A stretch of DNA of 34,728 bases from Patescibacteria group bacterium (GTDB lineage: Bacteria > Patescibacteriota > Patescibacteriia > Buchananbacterales > UBA6539). A program made the translations under genes and the position numbers. Shown here one piece after another: positions 30,515-30,841 of this stretch. How positions within the stretch are numbered: position 1 is the stretch's first letter; each line of letters begins with the position of its first letter. Location: the NCBI GenBank assembly GCA_028688055.1, contig JAQTYZ010000007.1, positions 1 through 34,728 of the forward strand, given 5' to 3'. The notes beneath the pieces are model-generated. The model had not been told where the DNA came from, made no database searches, and worked only from the letters and a program-made list of their open reading frames with translations.

Positions 30515-30806
30515 TTGTTCCATCCTTTCCCAGTAATTGGGAGTTTGGCCCAAGCTTGAATCACCACAACTTTCTCGTGAAAGTGTCACACCGCTGGCCA
30601 AGCAGTATAACCGTGGCGCCCACAACGCTCGTGCGTCTCATCCGTGGGCGGAAATTCTAGGTCCATTGCTCGTGCAATGTTTTTGCCAAACAGTGGCAAA
30701 GACCCGCTTACCATGCCTCGGGCATGTCTCTTCTGGATGATTTGAAGAGAAAACCAACAACAATGATTTATTGCCAATTTTCTCGTAAAATCACCAAAAT
30801 ATTAGA
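30515..30806 (-). ncRNA. Structured leader RNA: hairpin array with conserved [A/C]CGA loops
   Basis: Seven inverted repeats between promoter and first ORF; five share the loop CTCGT/CTCGG on the plus strand. Confidence 0.65.
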
Positions 30807-30812
30807 CTTCAT

Positions 30813-30841
30813 AATATACCAAATATTGCTATTTTTGTCAA
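30813..30841 (-). promoter_or_regulatory. Consensus promoter TTGACA-17-TATATT
   Basis: Minus strand TTGACAaaaatagcaatatttggTATATT. Confidence 0.8.

Follow-up and report, generated by a model that had tools for sequence, protein, structure and literature searches.

A conserved structured leader RNA with copy-specific repeated loops before an orphan protein gene in Patescibacteria

Structured 5' leaders are common, and the autogenous leaders among them, such as ribosomal-protein leaders and that of phage T4 gene 32, carry a pseudoknot near the ribosome-binding site and lie before the gene of their own binding protein. In the Csr/Rsm RNAs (e.g., CsrB and RsmZ, recognized by CsrA or RsmE), different stems present one loop motif closed by C-G and bind copies of one protein; in RsmZ, for example, A(N)GGAX loops top four stem-loops (PMC4005645). 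Type III toxin-antitoxin systems (i.e., ToxIN, CptIN, and TenpIN) follow the order promoter, RNA, toxin, and show pseudoknots and high cognate specificity (PMC5086642).

Here, we characterize the RNA that precedes an orphan gene, ORF1, in a 34,728-nucleotide stretch of DNA (the window; contig JAQTYZ010000007.1) from a Patescibacteria genome of 1.1 Mb in 22 contigs. Like the autogenous leaders, it places conserved RNA structure immediately upstream of a gene, in 10 RNAs, and the 3' strand of one pseudoknot (PK2) reaches the ribosome-binding site region, with modest permutation support; unlike them, it precedes an orphan gene of unmatched fold, and its repeated loops vary by copy. It resembles the Csr/Rsm RNAs in setting one loop motif closed by C-G on different stems. 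However, GGA loops occur only in the copies at loci L013, L017, and L053, whereas those of the window read CGA; the loop sequence varies between copies, a three-way junction and two pseudoknots are added, the downstream protein is not CsrA, Rfam offers no match, and the RNA appears to belong in cis to a single gene, as its leader, instead of serving as a sponge in trans. With type III toxin-antitoxin systems it has in common one promoter, an RNA followed by a protein gene, pseudoknots, and apparently copy-specific pairing, whereas tandem repeats are absent, no rho-independent terminator separates RNA and gene in the window (minus strand, 30515-30750), and the protein is not of the ToxN, CptN, or TenpN type (no Pfam, PADLOC, or PDB-fold match). 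The features of the locus are listed below, with H1 to H7 denoting the hairpins of a preliminary description of this DNA.

30813..30841, minus strand: promoter-like site TTGACA-17-TATATT, 11 of 12 consensus matches
30751..30799, minus strand: P1, upstream part of a long 5' hairpin, containing H7; in 4 of 10 RNAs
30727..30750, minus strand: P2 (H6), stem TCTCTTC/GAAGAGA; in 10 of 10 RNAs
30740-30735, minus strand: 5' half of pseudoknot PK1, UCAUCC, in the P2 loop; pairs with the domain D bulge
30712..30726, minus strand: hairpin A (H5), loop CGA closed by C-G; from alignment and covariation
30660..30704, minus strand: three-way junction, outer stem 30704-30701/30663-30660 around hairpins B and C
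30700-30682, minus strand: hairpin B (H4), inside the three-way junction
30679-30664, minus strand: hairpin C (H3), loop ACGA, inside the three-way junction
30617..30650, minus strand: domain D (H2), outer stem, bulge, and inner stem; from alignment and covariation
30643-30637, minus strand: domain D bulge GGAUGAG, 7 nt, the 3' half of PK1; can pair with the P2 loop
30636-30625, minus strand: domain D inner stem, loop ACGA; from alignment and covariation
30586..30610, minus strand: helix E, with two-sided changes in 8 of 9 pairs
30601-30595, minus strand: helix E loop UUGGCCA, the 5' half of PK2; complementary to GGCCAA
30569..30584, minus strand: hairpin F (H1), loop ACGA; from alignment and covariation
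30545..30550, minus strand: 3' half of PK2, GGCCAA, upstream of the Shine-Dalgarno region; from complementarity to the helix E loop
30521..30530, minus strand: probable Shine-Dalgarno region GGAAAGGATG, read from the sequence
29744..30514, minus strand: ORF1, 256-aa orphan protein with a helical N-terminal and an alpha/beta C-terminal domain (AlphaFold)
29274..29747, minus strand: ORF2, 157-aa orphan protein, its start overlapping the ORF1 stop (ATGA)
29226..29246, minus strand: terminator-like hairpin at the end of the transcription unit, from a window scan

The minus-strand leader 30750-30515, with which the ORF1 mRNA would begin, is conserved as a structured RNA and is no chance cluster of hairpins. 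Folding of the 292-nt leader yields -108.5 kcal/mol (z = -5.6), a value equalled by none of 200 shuffles, and the leader contains seven perfect hairpins (stem of at least 5, loop of 3-5), four of which include CGA in their loops. Seven or more hairpins arose in 2 of 5,000 dinucleotide shuffles of the leader and four hairpins with a common loop triplet in 3 of 5,000; nowhere else on either strand of the window was the hairpin and loop-triplet score as high. A -35-like hexamer stands 17 nt ahead of a -10-like hexamer in eight of the nine other copies (some weak; the exception is L005), and in five copies P2 begins 5-8 nt past the -10 box, approximately where transcription would be expected to start. 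Neither the window leader nor the leaders of the fetched loci reached the gathering threshold of any Rfam 15 family, in keeping with the earlier failure to recognize a known riboswitch, T-box, or retron msr-msd, and a search of a limited literature collection returned no such RNA in Patescibacteria; the leader RNA appears to be previously undescribed. We regard the existence of a conserved leader RNA linked to the ORF1 protein as close to certain.

The preliminary description had seen seven hairpins behind a consensus promoter, and both the promoter and H1 to H6 are present at the coordinates given there. H7 (30777-30791), by contrast, is a real inverted repeat but does not belong to the array: it is not conserved, and it forms part of the 5' arm of the long P1 hairpin, which excludes H6. 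Three other elements were retained in altered form, that is, H2, described as an outer stem around an inner hairpin, is a two-part stem interrupted by the bulge; the loop of H5 is corrected to CGA closed by C-G; and the TTGGCC/GGCCAA complementarity, thought to enclose H1, is real but likely forms a pseudoknot from the loop of helix E (30610-30586), a helix absent from that account. A CCCA/TGGG hairpin noted near the Shine-Dalgarno is present, although specific to the window. A common loop had been assigned to five of seven hairpins; the sharing holds, but the conserved array has four matching loops.

P1 and P2 are mutually exclusive, because the 3' arm of the long 5' hairpin overlaps P2. The extra 5' segment that forms P1 is found in the window, L009, L005, and L004, P1 being the stronger of the two by energy, and the preference of the energy model for P1 in the window (-26.8 kcal/mol, against -7.0 for the P2 state) counts against a fold built on P2. 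In the ten RNAs, P2, which like both pseudoknots was placed by inspection, has 98.4% of its cells paired, compared with 67.0% for mismatched arms. The two pseudoknots are likely, with PK2 reaching near the ribosome-binding site. PK1, between the P2 loop and the domain D bulge, comprises 5-7 bp in six RNAs and 4 bp in two others; its poor pairing in the remaining pair, L009 and L007, is again unfavourable. PK2, between the helix E loop and the stretch before the ribosome-binding site, comprises 4-7 bp in all ten RNAs (in L053 with its halves exchanged, UGACC with GGUCA) and in most copies coincides with the ribosome-binding site or start codon or sits only a few bases away. Permutation support for the two is modest (322 and 404 of 20,000, about 0.016-0.02).

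Ten copies of the RNA were collected from eight Patescibacteria-type genomes of two classes, all directly upstream of diverged ORF1 homologues. A search of 381 genomes of the class with the ORF1 protein yielded L003 to L007, and the same search of a phylum sample yielded L009, from another class; the window leader can be aligned over its full length with those of L004, L005, L007, and L009. Five leaders, arranged by structure, N-padded, and with a few inserted letters dropped (alignment A7), gave the covariance model R1, which on searching the 381 genomes retrieved L013, L015, and L017 without use of the protein, each directly before an ORF1 homologue. A second model (R2), built from eight sequences, returned from the phylum sample only the L009 locus and one false match (L045, 22.9 bits, antisense within a coding gene). 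A protein-profile search hit ten of 329 genomes and added the distant members L053 and L054, as well as one weak match that we set aside; the leader of L053 then matched the RNA model at 34.8 bits. In sum, ORF1 has homologues at 11 further loci, and the RNA accompanies 10 of 12 clear ORF1-family loci, with no confirmed occurrence elsewhere. Two facts weigh against the reading preferred below: L003 and L054 encode an ORF1-type protein without a detectable leader RNA, and the L006 leader, with the same helix order, matches the model weakly (14.5 bits, filters off). The pattern scan AAARCAYYGCASGRGCRRTGG returned mostly single-hairpin chance matches, L016 included; only L029 (JAHITV010000006.1) and L040 (JAHJKD010000053.1) were real, and they agree with the loci of genomes G278 and G157 in score and position. 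The 55 close relatives of the host contain no ORF1 homologue; nor did initial scans of genome contigs and viral contigs with the window protein reveal one, phage and plasmid collections held no homologue of the proteins tested, and small samples of the families or orders of four positive genomes held no additional RNA.

Several repeats were observed around such units. At L017, perfect 42-nt repeats (1379-1420 and 2844-2885) bracket one RNA-gene unit, and two neighbouring units have a common 3' repeat, a pattern that suggests cassette duplication. Elsewhere in the window, the two copies of a 101-nt direct repeat, 90% identical (9196-9296 and 9941-10041), enclose an orphan gene (9408-9683) together with its leader, which hints at an inserted cassette; that leader (9690-9810, minus strand) contains one long hairpin, ATTTAACC.CCTCATATT / AATATGAG.TGGTTAAAT. 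Two otherwise unrelated orphan units have GAGCCYGACCAGCTC in common in their terminator hairpins (9332-9346 and 29229-29243, minus strand). A second orphan gene pair (26008-27199, minus strand) has a GC content higher than that of the flanking gaps, and its first gene gives a sub-threshold ASCH match.

Covariation in homologous leaders, which the preliminary description had named as a test alongside absence from Rfam, is strong, and the array is kept. In the core of the eight-sequence alignment, which was fitted to the structure and so favours pairing figures, pairing extends to 97.1% of cells, compared with approximately 40% when partners were slid, and two-sided changes occur in 36 of 44 pairs; nine helices are 84-100% paired with their own arms and 45-67% with mismatched arms. 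The outer stem of the junction is 100% paired, with two-sided changes at each position. The bias of the fitted alignment is softened by the mismatched-arm control and because five of the ten RNAs lay outside the first model.

Hairpins A, C, D, and F carry one loop sequence per RNA, on different stems, which is CGA, GGA, AGGU-like, or NCU depending on the RNA. The loops are given in the order A, C, D, F.

Window: CGA, ACGA, ACGA, ACGA
L009: CGC, ACGA, ACGA, ACGA
L015: ACGA, ACGA, ACGA, ACGA
L007: ACGA, ACGA, ACGA, ACGC
L004: CGC, UCGAG, CGC, CGC
L013: AGGA, AGGA, AGGA, UGGA
L017: AGGA, GGGA, GGGA, GGGA
L053: UGGGAAG, GGGA, UUAUG, GGGA
L005: AGGU, AGGG, AGUU, AGGU
L006: GCU, ACU, UCU, UCU

The agreement within RNAs was reached by 0 of 100,000 permutations within hairpin position, a test that covered nine RNAs (L053, found later, was left out) and that kinship among the RNAs could inflate; with the CGA group reduced to one member, the count was still 0 of 100,000. 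Kinship alone is insufficient, because inheritance would make the same hairpin alike across RNAs and not different hairpins alike within one. An automatic hairpin search of each RNA found a shared triplet at p <= 0.001 in seven of nine, whereas L006 and L007 taken alone were not significant (p about 0.08), partly owing to the script's neglect of G-U pairs; L053, with one deviating loop, is a point on the contrary side. Genome G266 has three RNA copies with three different loops (NCU, ACGA, and GGGA). Since the loops change together between RNAs, a repeated binding element fits better than duplication, and the earlier proposal of a leader RNA with a repeated protein- or RNA-binding loop is supported by both the covariation and this concerted change. 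The loops are probably copy-specific sites for one partner.

AlphaFold gave usable models of the protein with two domains (pLDDT 81.8 for ORF1 and 79.5 for a second model). Neither model matched a fold in the PDB or BFVD at E <= 0.001, and matches of protein models to a kinase N-lobe-like fold (probability about 0.35) were weak and not trusted. ORF1-type proteins have no family in PHROGs, PADLOC, or Pfam, where matches were weak and confined to single members, and neither ORF1 nor ORF2 matched Pfam or NCBIfam. At L054, a 429-aa homologue (943-2232, minus strand) apparently contains two copies of the helical domain and has no detectable leader RNA. The preliminary description had connected the leader with two orphan genes; only ORF1 is tied to it, because ORF2 is no relative of ORF1 (the two lack similarity) and no counterpart of ORF2 was seen beside the other copies. 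Loop distance correlated with the distance between C-terminal domains (Mantel r 0.42, p 0.025), weakly and in one of three exploratory tests, and showed no Mantel correlation with N-terminal-domain distance.

From sequence comparison, we propose that the leader is a cis-acting RNA, made from its own promoter at the start of the ORF1 mRNA, that would fold into P2, hairpin A, the junction with hairpins B and C, domain D, helix E, and hairpin F. A pseudoknot between the P2 loop and the domain D bulge and another between the helix E loop and the stretch before the Shine-Dalgarno would hold these parts together. The loops of A, C, D, and F would form a multivalent target for a single sequence-specific partner, for which the ORF1 protein is the likeliest candidate; its binding would stabilize the fold and PK2 and presumably lower ORF1 translation (i.e., autogenous control). 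In four RNAs, P1 competes with P2 and could serve as an off-switch for the fold. Translational control with the ORF1 protein as putative partner is a tentative reading that may quite possibly be right; that the predicted protein is unlike any known RNA-binding fold counts against it.

The main rival, which we hold to be unlikely, is a toxin-antitoxin-type pair in which the RNA would be the working product and would silence the ORF1 protein in trans, the four loops docking it. Such a pair would account for an RNA placed immediately ahead of one fast-diverging protein under one promoter, for the scattered distribution, and for several copies with different loops per genome, and the gene order and high cognate specificity are those of type III systems (PMC5086642). 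Yet the leader has no tandem repeats, since its stems differ and only 3-4 nt loops recur; the window has no RNA-gene terminator, ORF1 belongs to no known toxin family or fold, the L003 and L054 proteins exist without the RNA, and PK2 links the RNA to the ribosome-binding site.

The same PK2, together with a compact fold of a junction and two pseudoknots and the alternative 5' hairpin P1, would suit a ligand riboswitch, in which a small molecule is bound, PK2 gates translation, and loop identity reflects tertiary contacts within the RNA. We find this improbable: joint change in four peripheral hairpins is unexpected for one pocket, the gene that follows encodes no known transporter or enzyme, and no Rfam riboswitch matches. 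Slightly less credible again is base pairing (kissing) of the four loops with an RNA segment, intramolecular or in trans, that is complementary to them and changes along with them. A base-pairing partner would explain concerted loop change as well as a protein would, but 3-4 nt loops are short for kissing, and by inspection no segment of the RNA itself is complementary to the loops across all copies.

The cassette-like context, with GC content above that of the immediate neighbourhood and 42-nt perfect repeats flanking one copy, would be in line with a DNA element whose single-stranded hairpins are read by a recombinase or replication protein, with the gene as cargo; this is very unlikely, in that a promoter-like site stands ahead of the array in nearly all copies, the array stops at the ribosome-binding site and is invariably before the same protein, and the stems contain G-U pairs (25 of 496 cells). 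Chance or generic mRNA-stabilizing hairpins, for which the frequency of structured leaders might speak, are scarcely conceivable in the face of covariation and loop concordance.

In the autogenous reading, loops and protein would diverge jointly, so that copies could operate within one cell without cross-talk. A bolder extension, conceivable though doubtful, is that these are orthogonal RNA-protein pairs: a loop "address" would be written four times in a conserved scaffold, read by a protein of new fold, and changed in all four places together as copies diverge, so that several pairs may coexist per minimal cell. For Patescibacteria, in which gene regulation is little understood, the locus contributes a family of structured RNAs along with one of orphan proteins whose fold is unmatched. 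Loops that are alike within an RNA and different between RNAs are an unusual evolutionary signature pointing to a specificity code and, if this proves true, the family would be a source of naturally orthogonal RNA-protein pairs.
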